DNA of 64,000 nt, from assembly GCA_028275705.1 (NCBI GenBank), contig JAPWUD010000002.1, forward strand, positions 1-64,000, in the 5' to 3' direction. This stretch comes from Desulfurococcaceae archaeon. GTDB taxonomy: Archaea; Thermoproteota; Thermoprotei_A; Sulfolobales; Desulfurococcaceae. The position numbers were made by a program, and so were the translations under genes. Shown one piece after another: positions 12,612 through 54,931 of this stretch (positions are counted from its first letter, which is position 1; the number at the start of each line of letters is the position of its first letter). The notes beneath the pieces are model-generated. The model was not told where the DNA came from, searched no databases, and saw only the letters and a program-made list of their open reading frames with translations.

Positions 12612-13469
12612 GTGGTGTTGAGCGTGAAGCTGTGTAGTGGTACAACTATATCTGTGATTGGAGCTGGTAGAATAGGGTCCGCTATTATAAGTTCGTTGAG
12701 GAATCACTGCGGAGATAGCATTAAGATCATTGCAACAGGGCGTAGAGAGGAGACATTAGAGAGAGCTGGGAAACTCGGCGCTCTAGCGATCAGGGATAAT
12801 AAACAAGCAGTGGGAGAGGCGGACATGATTGTACTCAGCGTGAAGCCGCATCACTTCCCTGACGTAGTGAAGCAAACTGGTAGAGATGTTTGGAGGGGTA
12901 AGTTAGTTGTGTCGGTAATGGCAGGTGTCAAAGTGAAAACTCTTGCAACTGCTATGCCTGGAGCCGAGGTATACCGGGCCATGACAAATATCAATGTACT
13001 CGTTGGAAAGGCTTCGACAGCCGTTGCAAACCCCGAGAACGACTCACCTAGTAAGCTAATTGTTGAGGAGTTATTTAGATGTATGGGTGAAGTGTACTGG
13101 GTTCCCGAGGAATACCTAGACGTGTGGACAAGCCTGGCTGGAAGCGGTCCTGCATTCATAGCGGAGATCGTCGATGCGCTTGTCCTCGGAGCAATGGCTT
13201 CCGGGATGCCAAGAGATCTAGCATACAAAGCCACATTAGATGTACTAGAGGGGACTGCTATACTTCTAAGAAACGCAAATAAACACCCAGCTACAATAAG
13301 AGACGAGGTTATAACACCAGCTGGAACTACAATAAGGGGTATTATGGTAATGGAGTCTGAAGGTATAAAATCAGCGTTGATGAAAACTATAGAAGCAACG
13401 TATAGGAGGTCTATAGAAATAGGTATTGAAATAGACCAATACGTCAAGAAAGAATTAAATATATCCTAA
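12612..13469 (+). CDS. proC: Pyrroline-5-carboxylate reductase
   Basis: VIGAGRIGSAI, LSVKPHHFPDV, AGSGPAFIAEIVDAL, TPAGTTIRGI. Confidence 0.93.
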   Translation: MVLSVKLCSGTTISVIGAGRIGSAIISSLRNHCGDSIKIIATGRREETLERAGKLGALAIRDNKQAVGEADMIVLSVKPHHFPDVVKQTGRDVWRGKLVVSVMAGVKVKTLATAMPGAEVYRAMTNINVLVGKASTAVANPENDSPSKLIVEELFRCMGEVYWVPEEYLDVWTSLAGSGPAFIAEIVDALVLGAMASGMPRDLAYKATLDVLEGTAILLRNANKHPATIRDEVITPAGTTIRGIMVMESEGIKSALMKTIEATYRRSIEIGIEIDQYVKKELNIS

Positions 13470-44120: not shown

Positions 44121-44670
44121 CTTTCAATTCTTTGTATTGTATTCTTGATACAGCTAAAGCCGGAACACGTGGTGCCACGTGAGATAGACTTTCAATTCTT
44201 TGTATTGTATTCCTCCGTTTACTTCATGGAGCTATCTGCAAACAAGCCAATACTTTCAATTCTTTGTATTGTATTCGATTTATACCGATAAAGTACTCCT
44301 TCTACAACTGCCCGTATCTTTCAATTCTTTGTATTGTATTCTGGAACAACATAGCGTATCCAATCGTATCATACACTATTGATGTGCTTTCAATTCTTTG
44401 TATTGTATTCAGGAGAAGGGGAGAATGCCCGGTTACTATGCTTATATCTACTCTTTCAATTCTTTGTATTGTATTCCGGGTGAGAAGTAAATGGCAGCTG
44501 CAACCCCAACCACTGAAGCTTTCAATTCTTTGTATTGTATTCCCTTGGTTTTAGGCGTGGGAGGTGTAAAAAACAAACCAGTACTTTCAATTCTTTGTAT
44601 TGTATTCAATCATATCAGCTGTAATACTAGCATACATAGCTTTAAACTTTCAATTCTTTGTATTGTATTC
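44121..44670 (-). CRISPR. CRISPR array: 9 identical 24-nt repeats, 8 spacers of 39-45 nt; probable transcription on - strand
   Basis: CTTTCAATTCTTTGTATTGTATTC (rc GAATACAATACAAAGAATTGAAAG) at 44121, 44189, 44253, 44318, 44387, 44453, 44519, 44584, 44647; ATTGAAAG end matches crenarchaeal crRNA 5' handles. Confidence 0.98.
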
Positions 44671-44749
44671 TAAGCTTGATCCTTGACGTGAGTTTCTTAA
44701 TATTGGATTCATGTCTCTATTAGTGTGGATGGGTTTATAAGCTTTACTC
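44671..44749 (-). promoter_or_regulatory. CRISPR leader-proximal region with TATA-like box
   Basis: adjacent to the last (+ strand) repeat; rc reads aaagcttataaaccc...gtcaaggatcaagctta-[repeat]; duplicated at 53238-53316. Confidence 0.75.
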
Positions 44750-45018
44750 ATGGTGATCATGGGGGTCTGATCAAAAGAGATCATGGATATAGATCATATA
44801 GAATCCCTGGCTTTCAGGGATGATCTCTCTTGTCTCTGTGCTGTATTTTCTTATTTTGTTTATGTGTTGGTGGTTTTGTACTGTTCTCTTCTATTCTGGG
44901 TGATTGCATGGATTCCTTGATCTTCCCTTGTTTTTAGGGAATTTTGTATTACTGTTCTGTAGTTAAGGGATTTGTATACGTTATTGAACTATTTGAACTA
45001 GATTCTCTGCAGACTCCT

Positions 45019-49861: not shown

Positions 49862-49939
49862 AAAGAGGATTTATTAGATGTTAGTTACTTAACGCTCCAG
49901 CTCTTACTGGGATCAAATTCAACGCCTCATTTTTGAGAA

Positions 49940-51424
49940 TTATGTTTTCTTCACCCACTTAAATAATCCATATTTCTTCTCCTGACTCGGTCTTACGTAT
50001 TCTCGTGTTTTATGCACTTGTCCTCTTTCCACACCCTCATTTCCCGTCTCTTCGTCTGCGAGCTCCTTGACTACTAGCTCTATGAAGTGATCTCTGACTG
50101 GCTCATAGGCTTTCTCATAGAATTTTACGGGGTCTTCTAGTACCTGGCGTGGAAACCTACTTAGGTATTTTAAGGCGGCTTCCCACGCTAGCTCGTATGG
50201 TATAACTCCCTCTATTTTATTAGTGATGTTTCTATCGTAGTCTTCTGGGAGTTGCTCTTTATCGCCTATAATGAAGTAGCCTCGTGGCGATACAAATGCA
50301 CCCTCACCTAAAACCTCCTCTTGTACTCTCGATTTGTCACTAGATTGCACGCTGCTCTCGGTATTGATATCTACAATGTCTATGTATAGGCGTTTTGCAT
50401 TCTTAGGTATGTAGCCTCTACCATAGTGTTTAGCCCATGCATAGAATATTGCACGGTTCAACCCAAAGCTCTTAGCTTTCTCTAAATCCCCGTGTAGTAG
50501 GTAGTATCGAGCGGCCTGGAGTAAACCCATTACTTGAAACCTACCGATCTTACCCCCCGGAGCACGTGGCACCCCACCACTCACTTTCCTCGGAGATGAC
50601 TCAACTAAACCCACTCTCGAGTGCACTTGACTCATTACATTAATCCTCTTCAGTGCTTCCAGTGCGAGTGCATCGCCTTCACCCTCTTTAAAAACACGCC
50701 ATGCACTTGGATCGTGTTTAAACGACCCCGGATCAACCCATCCAGGCTCAAAGCTATTAATGGCGCTTGGCTTAAAGCAGACGGCCACAGCGTCTCTCCT
50801 ACGGTGTAGTGAGAGTGGAATTGTGAAGACTCTCTTAATATCCACAAGGTTCTCCACTTTCACACCACTACTCCTAGCCAACGGCTCAATTTTATCCCTA
50901 GTCTCCCTCAAGACGTACTCAACAATTGAGTATGCTATATTGAGTGAATTGTATTTTGAGAGGATCTCCCTGGAGAATGCCTTCTCATTTATTCTAACGT
51001 GTGCGCCTTCACCACTCCACAATATGTAAACGCTCTCCTCTAATCCATGCCTCTCTAGGTAGTCAATTATTAAGCTAGCTACATCGAGAACGCTCCTGTA
51101 TTTATCCAGTGAGCCGTCGATATCGAAGAATGGAGTAGTGTACGCTATATTTCCTAAATCATCCAGCATGGAGGTGGAAGCTAGGTTTTTGTAGACGTGG
51201 ATCGTGGCGTAGAAAGTCCTAGCATTGAGCCTCTTATACCTATTAATAAGGCCCAATACATCCCTCTCACTGCTGAGAACCAATGGTTGATCCTTGAAAT
51301 ACCTCACAAAAATCCTTCTCTCACCATAAGAACCCTCAACAGCAATCCACCTACCCCTAGAATACTCAGCAATCTCTCTTGCTACATCCCCACGACTATA
51401 GTGGCTGTAAACAACAGAGCTCAA
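49940..51424 (-). CDS. Archaeo-eukaryotic primase (PriS-like) superfamily protein with C-terminal extension
   Basis: AEP motifs: FFDIDG, WSGEGAHVRI, VDIKRVFTIPLSLHRR. Confidence 0.8.
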   Translation of the reverse strand: MSSVVYSHYSRGDVAREIAEYSRGRWIAVEGSYGERRIFVRYFKDQPLVLSSERDVLGLINRYKRLNARTFYATIHVYKNLASTSMLDDLGNIAYTTPFFDIDGSLDKYRSVLDVASLIIDYLERHGLEESVYILWSGEGAHVRINEKAFSREILSKYNSLNIAYSIVEYVLRETRDKIEPLARSSGVKVENLVDIKRVFTIPLSLHRRRDAVAVCFKPSAINSFEPGWVDPGSFKHDPSAWRVFKEGEGDALALEALKRINVMSQVHSRVGLVESSPRKVSGGVPRAPGGKIGRFQVMGLLQAARYYLLHGDLEKAKSFGLNRAIFYAWAKHYGRGYIPKNAKRLYIDIVDINTESSVQSSDKSRVQEEVLGEGAFVSPRGYFIIGDKEQLPEDYDRNITNKIEGVIPYELAWEAALKYLSRFPRQVLEDPVKFYEKAYEPVRDHFIELVVKELADEETGNEGVERGQVHKTREYVRPSQEKKYGLFKWVKKT

Positions 51425-51608
51425 GTAGACCAGCCAGTAGAAATATCAAAGTGAAAACAGTCTTAAGCCAGAGGAGCCCACGATTCGTGAAAACAATATG
51501 TTATTGACTAGATTTAGCAGAATAGATGTTATTGTGGATAGACTGAATGCCCTATATTAGAATGAGAAAGGCACTTCTGCACACAAACCTAAGTAAATTG
51601 GTCCCAAT

Positions 51609-52472
51609 TTAATGTTCGTTATTTACCTGGGAAATTATTACTGGATTCTTAGTCATGAATTCGCTTAATGGTATATTTCTCCTCGGCCTACGCGCTATTA
51701 TAACTCCACTAAACTGAGATCTAATAGGTGCGAAGTCCACGTCTTCGAAGAAGACCCATGTAAAGGCCGCTGAAGACGCTATATCCCAGTAGTAGGTGTT
51801 TAACTCTGCTCGTTCACCTCTAGGTATACTTATATAAGCCCTCCTGGTGTACCCTGTTCTAGCATCTCTATCTACATATATATCTAGTGTAACTCCTCCT
51901 TCTTCAACTATTGGTATTAGCTCTTTAAACCCCGTTCTAATGAAAATACCGTAAACTCTATCACTTTCATCATACATGAATAAACCATTATCAACGAGTA
52001 ACTTAGACACATTTGCGAGAATTTTTAACCAAGTCCATGGATTGAAGTGTGGAGTTGTAGAACCCCACATTAATGCAATATCTTGTTTTTCAAGTTCAAG
52101 TGGCTGAGTCACATCAGTTAATAGTGTACTTGGCTCGAATCCAAGTTCTCTTAACCCATGCTTTCTAGCTTTCTCCAGTGCACTGGATCTAAGGTCTACT
52201 AGTGTTAATTTAACTTCAAACCCCTTCTCTACAAGCACTTTGGATAATCCTATACCAGCTAATCCCGTGCCACTGCAGATATCAATAATTCTAACAATTC
52301 TTCTATCCTTAAGAAATTCCTTGATCCAATTATGATTGATCAACTGCTCCATGTCTCCACGTATTTGCCTATATCTCTCAATACCTTGAGGAGTCTCGGG
52401 ATCCTCTACCCACGAGATTAAACTATACAACTTCTCTAATTCAATCTGCAAACTCATACTTATCACATGCAT
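51609..52472 (-). CDS. Class I SAM-dependent methyltransferase
   Basis: RIIDICSGTGLAGIGLSKVLVEKGFEVKLTLVDLRSSALEKARKHG. Confidence 0.8.
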   Translation of the reverse strand: MHVISMSLQIELEKLYSLISWVEDPETPQGIERYRQIRGDMEQLINHNWIKEFLKDRRIVRIIDICSGTGLAGIGLSKVLVEKGFEVKLTLVDLRSSALEKARKHGLRELGFEPSTLLTDVTQPLELEKQDIALMWGSTTPHFNPWTWLKILANVSKLLVDNGLFMYDESDRVYGIFIRTGFKELIPIVEEGGVTLDIYVDRDARTGYTRRAYISIPRGERAELNTYYWDIASSAAFTWVFFEDVDFAPIRSQFSGVIIARRPRRNIPLSEFMTKNPVIISQVNNEH

Positions 52473-52516
52473 TGGTATACGCTAGCACACTATTTATAGT
52501 TAATAGGGGATTAATG

Positions 52517-52696
52517 TGAGTAGATTTCATGGTGATTTATTGACTAGGTATACTATTGGAGAAGAGACACTTAAGCTAATACTAGAGGGTAAGGCAAGGC
52601 CGGTTAAAGGCGTGAAGTTGAGGTATGGGAAATATAGAATTGTGAAGAGATATATCGTTAAAGGAGTTGTATATGGCTGTAAGAGTGAGGGTTAAA
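52517..52696 (+). CDS. Small basic protein (59 aa) overlapping the aspartic-protease-like ORF
   Basis: GTG-initiated ORF VSRFHGDLLTRYTIGEETLKLILEGKARPVKGVKLRYGKYRIVKRYIVKGVVYGCKSEG, not in supplied ORF list. Confidence 0.5.
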
Positions 52697-53089
52697 ATAT
52701 CGAGAGGTAGTAGAGAGAAAACTCTTATCGTGCTAGTTAATAGTGGTGCTGAGAGTGAAGAACCAGTTGTAGTCGTTAGTCCTAGGGACGCCATAGATCT
52801 TGGCTTCAACCTCGAAGAATTCGACGTTGTAGAAGTAGAGTTAGCCTCTGGGAAAACCCAGGGCCTCATATCTAGGGAGAAGGTTATTCTTGAACTACTA
52901 AGTGAGAATGGTAGCACTTTATCCACTACGCAAGCCTACCTCGCCGTCGACGAAAACCTCATAGAACCCCTAATAACAGACGCCACCATTGATGAACTAG
53001 GCATAGTTATATTGAGCTTTAAGAAAGGGTTGTGGAGACATAGAAACGACCCTCCCAACATTACAAGGTATAGTGCTCTTTATAAATAA
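52667..53089 (+). CDS. Clan AA retropepsin-like domain protein with degenerate catalytic motif
   Basis: VLVNSGAESEEPVVVVSPRDAIDLGFNLEEFDVVEVELASGKTQGLISREKVILEL: D-T/S-G replaced by N-S-G. Confidence 0.65.
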   Translation: MYMAVRVRVKISRGSREKTLIVLVNSGAESEEPVVVVSPRDAIDLGFNLEEFDVVEVELASGKTQGLISREKVILELLSENGSTLSTTQAYLAVDENLIEPLITDATIDELGIVILSFKKGLWRHRNDPPNITRYSALYK

Positions 53090-53237
53090 AGCTGGATGGA
53101 ACCCTCAAACATAATCCTTATTATTAGAACATAGCGATTTAAAAGTCTCACTTACTCTAAGGCGTTGAGATAGTCAGTACGAGAGGCGAGTTGATGTATA
53201 GTTCTATTTGCATTATTGCTCATTAGGCGGTGATAGA

Positions 53238-53340
53238 TAGGAAAGCTTATAAACCCCTCCTCACTAATAGAGATGTGAATCCAATATTAAGAAACTTGCG
53301 TCAAGGATCAAGCTTAGAATCCAATACAAAGAATTGAAAG
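53238..53340 (+). repeat. Duplicated CRISPR leader segment plus one degenerate repeat (solo leader-repeat unit)
   Basis: 53242-53316 matches rc of 44671-44745 without indels; repeat GAATCCAATACAAAGAATTGAAAG at 53317-53340 differs from array repeat at 1 of 24 positions. Confidence 0.92.
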
Positions 53341-53605
53341 ATTGTTGAGGTGTTAAGAGGTGGAATTCTATTGGTGAATCGAAGTATTTCTTGTAGAGAA
53401 CGTCGTATATTCTCAGCTTTTTCTCTCTGTTCTTGAAATCCTCGGACACTATTGCAATGTCTATGTCGCTTAATCCAATACAGTAATCCCCCCTGACTAC
53501 ACTACCGAATACAAATACTCGCGCTTCTACCTCCCTATTAACTAGCTCCTTAACCTCCCTTGCTGTATCAATGTAGTTTAGAAAGTAGCTCTTTATTTTC
53601 TCCAT
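53264..53605 (-). CDS. MNT-type nucleotidyltransferase; C-terminal ~25 aa encoded by CRISPR leader/repeat sequence
   Basis: ARVFVFGSVVRGDYCIGLSDIDIAIVS; FDSPIEFHLLTPQQ then SFNSLYWILSLILDASFLILDSHLY translated from the repeat/leader. Confidence 0.85.
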   Translation of the reverse strand: MEKIKSYFLNYIDTAREVKELVNREVEARVFVFGSVVRGDYCIGLSDIDIAIVSEDFKNREKKLRIYDVLYKKYFDSPIEFHLLTPQQSFNSLYWILSLILDASFLILDSHLY

Positions 53606-53606
53606 A

Positions 53607-54005
53607 AAACCTCTTTTAGTTTCTCATATAGTTGAAAAGCTCTTTTAACCTCCTCATCGAAGAACTCCTCGTAAATATATCTTAATGAAATATATGTCCG
53701 TTCCAGGTCTCTCAGAGTGTACTTATGTTGCTCTAGAATCTCCTTAATCTCGTTTTTACCCCAAAATCCGCGAGTTCCAACAATAGTCTTCTAAGGGAGT
53801 GAGTCCGAGTATAAGAACCCTTAATCTCGAGGAGTTTTGCCTTGATCAATAGTTGGATCGCCTGCTCTAAGTGGAACATTGAAATGTCGAAATCCCCGTT
53901 CTCATAGTCTACTTCTGCGTCTCTCTTGAAAGCCTCAGCCCTCTTCAACAAGATCTCTATTTCCTCCCTCAAATCCGCCACCCCGTTTAATAAAGATGTT
54001 TTCAA
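53607..54005 (-). pseudogene. HEPN domain protein with apparent frameshift near 53755
   Basis: AEAFKRDAEVDYENGDFDISMFHLEQAIQLLIKAKLLEIKGSYTRTHSLRRLLLELADFG then, in another frame, KNEIKEILEQHKYTLRDLERTYISLRYIYEEFFDEEVKRAFQLYEKLKEVLW. Confidence 0.75.
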
Positions 54006-54019
54006 AATTACGAATACTC

Positions 54020-54931
54020 CTAGCTCTTAATCAATCCCTCAAACACTTCTATTGGCGAGCCAAAGACCTCGTGGAATTTATCATTATACTTCTCCCTGAA
54101 TAAAGCTAGAAGTTGCTTTAGTGTTCTTAATACTGGCTCATCTATTGGAGTATCCAGTGGTCTCGGTGGATAGTAGTCTAGTCCCTTCAATAAACTAGTT
54201 GCAAAATACCAAATTGTTTTATCTACTTTCCTCCCCTTTACTGGTTGACCAGAAAAACCTCTTGAATTAAAAGATGTATATATCAAGTAAACCTCGTCAA
54301 CTACAGCTGGGTATTTTAAATCACCGTTCAATAGCTCAAGGTCTAATACTTCATATCCATGTTTTGTTCTACTGGTGGACTCTACTCTAACTCCAAATAA
54401 ATCCCTAATCCTCGGGTCATAAACCAATACACGTGTTCCAGCCACTATCTCTAACCCTCCATTCTCAACCCTAACCACAGTGTTTTCTGTTGAGTATACC
54501 TTAAACCCCCGGCTCACAGCCAGAGCCGTAATAGTGCTTTTACCAGTATGAGGGTATCCTAGTAGGAGTACATTCCTCGATCCTAGATTAATAGACACAG
54601 AGTCTGTTAACACTACATACCCATTCCTGGCAAGACTCCTCGCCAACACTTGGAGTAGGAAGAATACTGGTGATTCATTTACGTATGGGTATGGTAGATC
54701 GCCCGCGACAACGTATTGATCTTCACTAATTGACGAATAGAGTTCAGATAAGACCTGAAATCCAGATCCATTTACCCAGTATACTACACTATTAGCGTTT
54801 ATGCATTGATCAACCAAGTCTAACCTCGGTAAATACCTTCTAGCAAACTCAGTTGTTAAAGAGCTATGTAAATCCCTGATTCTATCATGTACCACCTTAA
54901 TACACGTATTTAAAAGACTTAACCCTGCCAA
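54020..54931 (-). CDS. P-loop protein, HprK/PEPCK-like ATP-binding fold, unknown function
   Basis: NLGSRNVLLLGYPHTGKSTITALAVSRGFKVYSTENTVV. Confidence 0.6.
   Translation of the reverse strand: MAGLSLLNTCIKVVHDRIRDLHSSLTTEFARRYLPRLDLVDQCINANSVVYWVNGSGFQVLSELYSSISEDQYVVAGDLPYPYVNESPVFFLLQVLARSLARNGYVVLTDSVSINLGSRNVLLLGYPHTGKSTITALAVSRGFKVYSTENTVVRVENGGLEIVAGTRVLVYDPRIRDLFGVRVESTSRTKHGYEVLDLELLNGDLKYPAVVDEVYLIYTSFNSRGFSGQPVKGRKVDKTIWYFATSLLKGLDYYPPRPLDTPIDEPVLRTLKQLLALFREKYNDKFHEVFGSPIEVFEGLIKS

Follow-up and report, generated by a model that had tools for sequence, protein, structure and literature searches.

The systems closest to the locus described here are small CRISPR arrays and CRISPR repeats that lie outside arrays. 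Minimal or orphan crenarchaeal arrays of subtypes I-A and III share with our locus the leader core, the TATA box and the 24-nt repeat with its ATTGAAAG handle, but our locus is spacerless, has its leader cut to 75 nt, and is fused to coding sequence. The CreA element of CreTA systems consists of degenerate repeats, usually two, without a leader (PMC8501985). As in CreA, an ectopic CRISPR repeat here stands beside a toxin-antitoxin gene pair; unlike CreA, it is one intact repeat with a leader core, the toxin and antitoxin genes encode proteins, and no promoter target was found. Solitary repeat units, or Racrs, pair a promoter with one repeat and are located on viruses and plasmids (PMC10651486). 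Our locus resembles them in carrying one repeat behind a promoter-like TATA box, outside an array and not beside cas genes, yet we found no viral, phage or plasmid relative of it. Off-target spacer integration in E. coli is said, in 2018 work by Nivala et al., to spontaneously yield new CRISPR loci that reportedly comprise a spacer and duplicated target with no leader. Ours is likewise a CRISPR-like locus that appears new at an ectopic site and has putative Cas1-Cas2 joining points, but it carries a leader core and no spacer. Our literature search returned no spacerless leader-repeat locus, which is not proof of absence, and to our knowledge little is known of how a genome acquires a second or third CRISPR locus that has a leader of its own.

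Here, we describe such a unit at positions 53242-53340 of the window, the 64,000-nt stretch of DNA analysed, which comes from a Thermosphaera-like hot-spring archaeon (G000). The unit is real, is common to two genomes, and is recurrent in the genus. Our best reading, to which we assign a probability of roughly 55%, is that it is a spacerless CRISPR locus: an ectopic leader core and one repeat, copied or recombined as a module into an MNT nucleotidyltransferase locus.

A leader core with a single repeat

The unit begins with a CRISPR leader core that runs from a TATA-like box to the leader-repeat junction (53242-53316, + strand; alignment A1, model R1) and ends with a single intact 24-nt repeat (53317-53340, +) whose 3' edge is the junction with MNT. 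The TATA-like box, CTTATAAA (53246-53253, +), is invariant in array leaders of this type and lies ~65 nt 5' of the repeat. In a BLAST search of its own genome, 53200-53400 matches C5:44644-44748 on the minus strand (91% over 105 nt, ungapped, E 2e-37) as well as leaders at C38 (90%) and C7 (86%). The C5 match falls in a related minus-strand array at 44121-44951, made up of nine repeats (44121-44670) and a leader (44671-44951), to whose leader and first repeat the unit is 91-92% identical. The preliminary description, which saw at 53238-53340 an indel-free copy of 44647-44749 with a repeat 23/24 identical to that of the array, is borne out: the repeat, GAATCCAATACAAAGAATTGAAAG, differs at one base from the C5 repeats (GAATACAATAC...) and agrees at all 24 positions with the repeats of arrays C7 and C38. 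Model R1 (102 positions) scores the unit at E 5e-28, with the unit itself among the sequences used to build the model.

The further claim that the leader had been copied holds for the repeat-proximal 75 nt and fails for the remainder of a leader of ~280 nt: array leaders of this type extend ~200 nt further (TGATCAGACCCCCATGATCACC...), and this distal part is absent from the unit. In contrast, the claim that the repeats stop after one copy stands, as the best match to a second repeat in the 100 nt downstream is 10/24 (shuffle P 0.98). The locus therefore has the leader of a CRISPR array, in the form of its core, but a single repeat in place of at least two with spacers between. In the Sulfolobus I-A system, Cas1 binds from -25 to +7 and Csa3a binds a distal site from -143 to -94 (PMC9456107); the unit retains the region equivalent to the Cas1 site and is without the distal Csa3a region. 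A search of the G000 assembly (42 contigs, three arrays) recovered neither Cas1 nor Cas10, and its only cas match is a weak Cas6-like one on C22. The C38 leader starts where its contig ends, and this assembly may therefore lack cas genes; in the sister genome G006 (Thermosphaera sp. Bin P8), csa3, csa1, cas1 and cas4 share a contig whose start falls within a leader, with Cas10 elsewhere. None of 54 array spacers matches the window outside its own array.

The fragmented assembly (42 contigs) and the repeated nature of leader sequences had raised the doubt that a CRISPR leader was artificially joined to MNT at 53340. The identical junction in G006 (on C47), a genome 4-6% diverged that has its own substitutions around it, removes this doubt and makes such an artefact extremely improbable. 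G000 and G006 differ by 5.5% over 3986 aligned bases; within these 4 kb, the longest stretch free of changes is 53242-53391 (P 0.038, assuming evenly spread changes). The unit lies in a ~4.1-kb segment (49862-54019) between CoaBC and a kinase-like gene (54020-54931; named from its P-loop only, with no Pfam match). This segment contains a primase-like gene, a methyltransferase, a clan AA-like protein, the leader-repeat unit and MNT/HEPN, of which the primase-like gene and clan AA-like protein were named by eye and have no Pfam match. In G002, G004, G005 and G007, the two flanking genes are only 27-86 bp apart, and thus the segment is not common to these genomes. In G003 and G002, a relative of the primase-like gene occurs in another context. 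Separately, the array at 44121-44951 lies between transglutaminase-like and Trm5-like genes, where four relatives have no array; its leader and that at G006:C115 (L035, 14-442) occupy the same intergenic site in opposite orientations.

The junction with MNT and the fate of the HEPN/MNT pair

As the preliminary description held, the repeat runs straight into MNT: the very next base already belongs to the MNT coding sequence, which lies on the opposite strand (53341-53605, -; Pfam NTP_transf_2 E 7e-11). The encoded protein is homologous to Archaeoglobus AF0614 (1ylq; E 3e-22) through residue 88, the last whole codon ahead of the repeat. A related Archaeoglobaceae gene (L028) continues with WNFYKNFVKKFRKV past this break, and therefore ~14 codons of MNT have been lost from its end. 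We considered a clean insertion that split MNT and rejected it, as the lost tail was not found upstream of the unit. What remains is a chimeric 113-aa ORF (53264-53605, -), the same in G006, in which MNT is followed by 25 residues from the antisense of the repeat and leader. The partner gene, HEPN (53606-54005, -; HEPN E 3e-18), has an interrupted frame in both genomes, in G000 by a 1-nt indel near 53762 in a run of A, where a base-calling error is possible, and in G006 by a nonsense codon. In G006, MNT additionally reads GLSNID in place of GLSDID and so lacks a conserved Asp (D47N). The two domains that define a HEPN/MNT pair are thus neighbours, but intact frames and the MNT tail are missing. 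Codon changes in MNT between the genomes number 8 synonymous and 4 other, and because of this ratio the decay of MNT is not certain. Judged from these sequences, the toxin-antitoxin pair looks dead or dying, whereas the leader-repeat unit is unchanged. The lost tail, the broken HEPN frames and D47N argue against the functional link to HEPN/MNT drawn previously.

A functional alternative is that the unit specifies an ectopic-repeat RNA in which MNT antisense follows a single Cas6 site; its role would be that of a repeat decoy or of an antisense regulator, either CreA-like or type III. In keeping with this, its TATA box, leader core and repeat are all intact, and the unit and the next 51 nt are unchanged between two strains 5.5% apart, while a TATA-less unit described below drifts (5/65 versus 0/99 positions changed; Fisher P 0.009, post hoc). 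Such an RNA would, however, have no second repeat and no notable match to the HEPN promoter, the HEPN frames are interrupted, and viral, phage and plasmid collections contain no relative of the unit; we consider this explanation quite unlikely. The CreA-like control suggested earlier is not supported: the second repeat (P 0.98) and promoter match are absent, and a leader with an intact repeat takes the place of a leaderless, degenerate architecture. The longest match of the spacer-like part to the region upstream of HEPN is 9 nt and lies away from the seed, and the first 10 nt of the guide recur once in the window, near 13059, which is unremarkable for so short a word. A viral origin is likewise not supported, as the repeat and leader matched nothing in viral contigs, phages or plasmids.

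Recurrence in the genus

The unit in the preliminary description is one of several in the genus. Searching with R1 across the family and with the full leader across the genus, and then reading each place, we found at least five independent loci with a leader and a single repeat. Beyond the window unit, these are at G006:C89, at G000:C16 with its orthologue at G006:C123, at G003:C73 and at G001:C6. The orthologous unit (L033:5627-5691 in G000, L087:4322-4387 in G006) is the one missing its TATA part; it lies ~30 nt upstream of an rpiB-like gene, and its two copies differ at 5 of 65 positions. The G003:C73 unit (L091:1474-1575) lies some 1.7 kb away from a cluster of type III genes that includes Cas10, and the G001:C6 unit immediately adjoins the stop codon of trm56, a gene that is intact there. 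Arrays with one spacer are present at G000:C38 and G002:C2, and longer arrays at C5, C7, G006:C44 and G006:C146 and in G005 and G026. A separate locus, at G003:C28 (L047:5253-5340), has two degenerate repeats flanking a ~35-nt spacer directly upstream of CooC-like and CO dehydrogenase-like genes, and could be CreA-like or a minimal array.

The clearest case, at G006:C89, can be compared with an allele that lacks the unit. The first 140 bases of C89 correspond to the 3' end of an MBL-fold gene in G000:C39, and the stretch from base 384 onward aligns to the far side of the same region. Between these flanks, G000 has ~1.05 kb comprising the rest, and thereby most, of the intact MBL-fold gene (Lactamase_B) and upstream DNA, and G006 has a ~250-nt unit of one repeat and ~230 nt of leader. 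Since truncation of the gene marks the derived state, G006 is the side on which the unit was gained. Homology between C89 and C39 ends no more than about 2 nt from the repeat edge, MNT is cut at the repeat edge, and homology between the C5 array and G006:C115 ends at the edge of the last repeat. Cas1-Cas2 normally joins spacers at the repeat edge. Random breaks within arrays would often leave part-spacers. Three edges at a repeat boundary, a small sample of breakpoints read post hoc, suggest that joining favours the repeat end.

The main rival to an inserted module is a collapsed array, in which recombination between the first and last repeats of an array ending at MNT removed all spacers to leave a leader and one repeat. 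Recombination between repeats can delete spacers and is known in Sulfolobales arrays (PMC4390879), one-spacer arrays exist in this genus, and collapse predicts exactly the observed order of leader, repeat and flank. Yet it leaves unexplained why an array should have ended at a codon inside MNT, and the repeat left behind is intact, unlike the degenerate one that terminates the C7 array. Moreover, the C89 form arose on the G006 side, where collapse would need gain, growth and full loss in quick succession. We regard a collapsed array as possible but on balance doubtful.

The left edge and a possible route to new sites

At its upstream edge, the unit bears a putative relic of an IS200/IS605-type transposon end (GCGGTGATAGATAGG + AAAGCTTATAA; 53226-53252, +; blastn). 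This stretch matches the end adjoining a Y1_Tnp gene in G006:C44 at 24-25 of 27 positions and includes part of the element's hairpin and GATRGATAGRAAAGCTTATAA. The blastn E-values (9e-4 for the window, 2e-5 for G006) come from a small sequence set, with 11 of the 27 positions belonging to a box that is common to leaders anyway; a pattern for the end was built from both sequences, making its shuffle expectation of 0.01 a guide only. Since leader and transposon end have the box AAAGCTTATAA in common, a switch within it would simply account for the truncation of the leader, which an IS200/IS605 end may therefore explain. As a separate observation, a dispersed ~55-bp repeat (about 25 places in G000; L037:541-620) represents the terminus of an IS200/IS605-type element that has a Y1 transposase, and some copies may lack the transposase.

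Returning to the module inserted at MNT, we propose that the locus received a leader-repeat module by copying or recombination, with one side produced by a break at the spacer-side edge of the repeat, the usual Cas1-Cas2 joining point, and the other joined through an IS200/IS605 end with the common AAAGCTTATAA box. This event would have broken the antitoxin gene MNT, after which the toxin gene would have decayed. We found no intact MNT allele at this site, and for that reason infer insertion there by analogy. That the unit had been "captured or transposed", as first suggested, is made plausible by the replacement of part of the MBL-fold gene at C89 and by the MNT cut at the repeat edge, short of proof. 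Today, the TATA box can probably still drive an RNA in which the repeat, bearing one Cas6 site, precedes MNT antisense, and in principle the unit could take up spacers; on our best reading of its sequence, it is mostly inert now and perhaps still transcribed.

Our data suggest that spacerless leader-repeat units spread to new sites. A broader and rather improbable extension is that bare modules spread in Thermosphaera and found new CRISPR loci: the chemistry of adaptation enzymes would join them to the chromosome exactly at the repeat edge, transposon ends would sometimes assist, and host genes would be broken on arrival. CRISPR parts are seen breaking host genes here, and the locus carries a caution that a lone repeat near a toxin gene need not be a regulator. 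For CRISPR biology, the unit bears on the arrival of leader-repeat units at new sites and not on HEPN/MNT control. Spacerless units at new sites, one of them with an intact allele in a sister strain, offer concrete places to study how CRISPR loci are gained.
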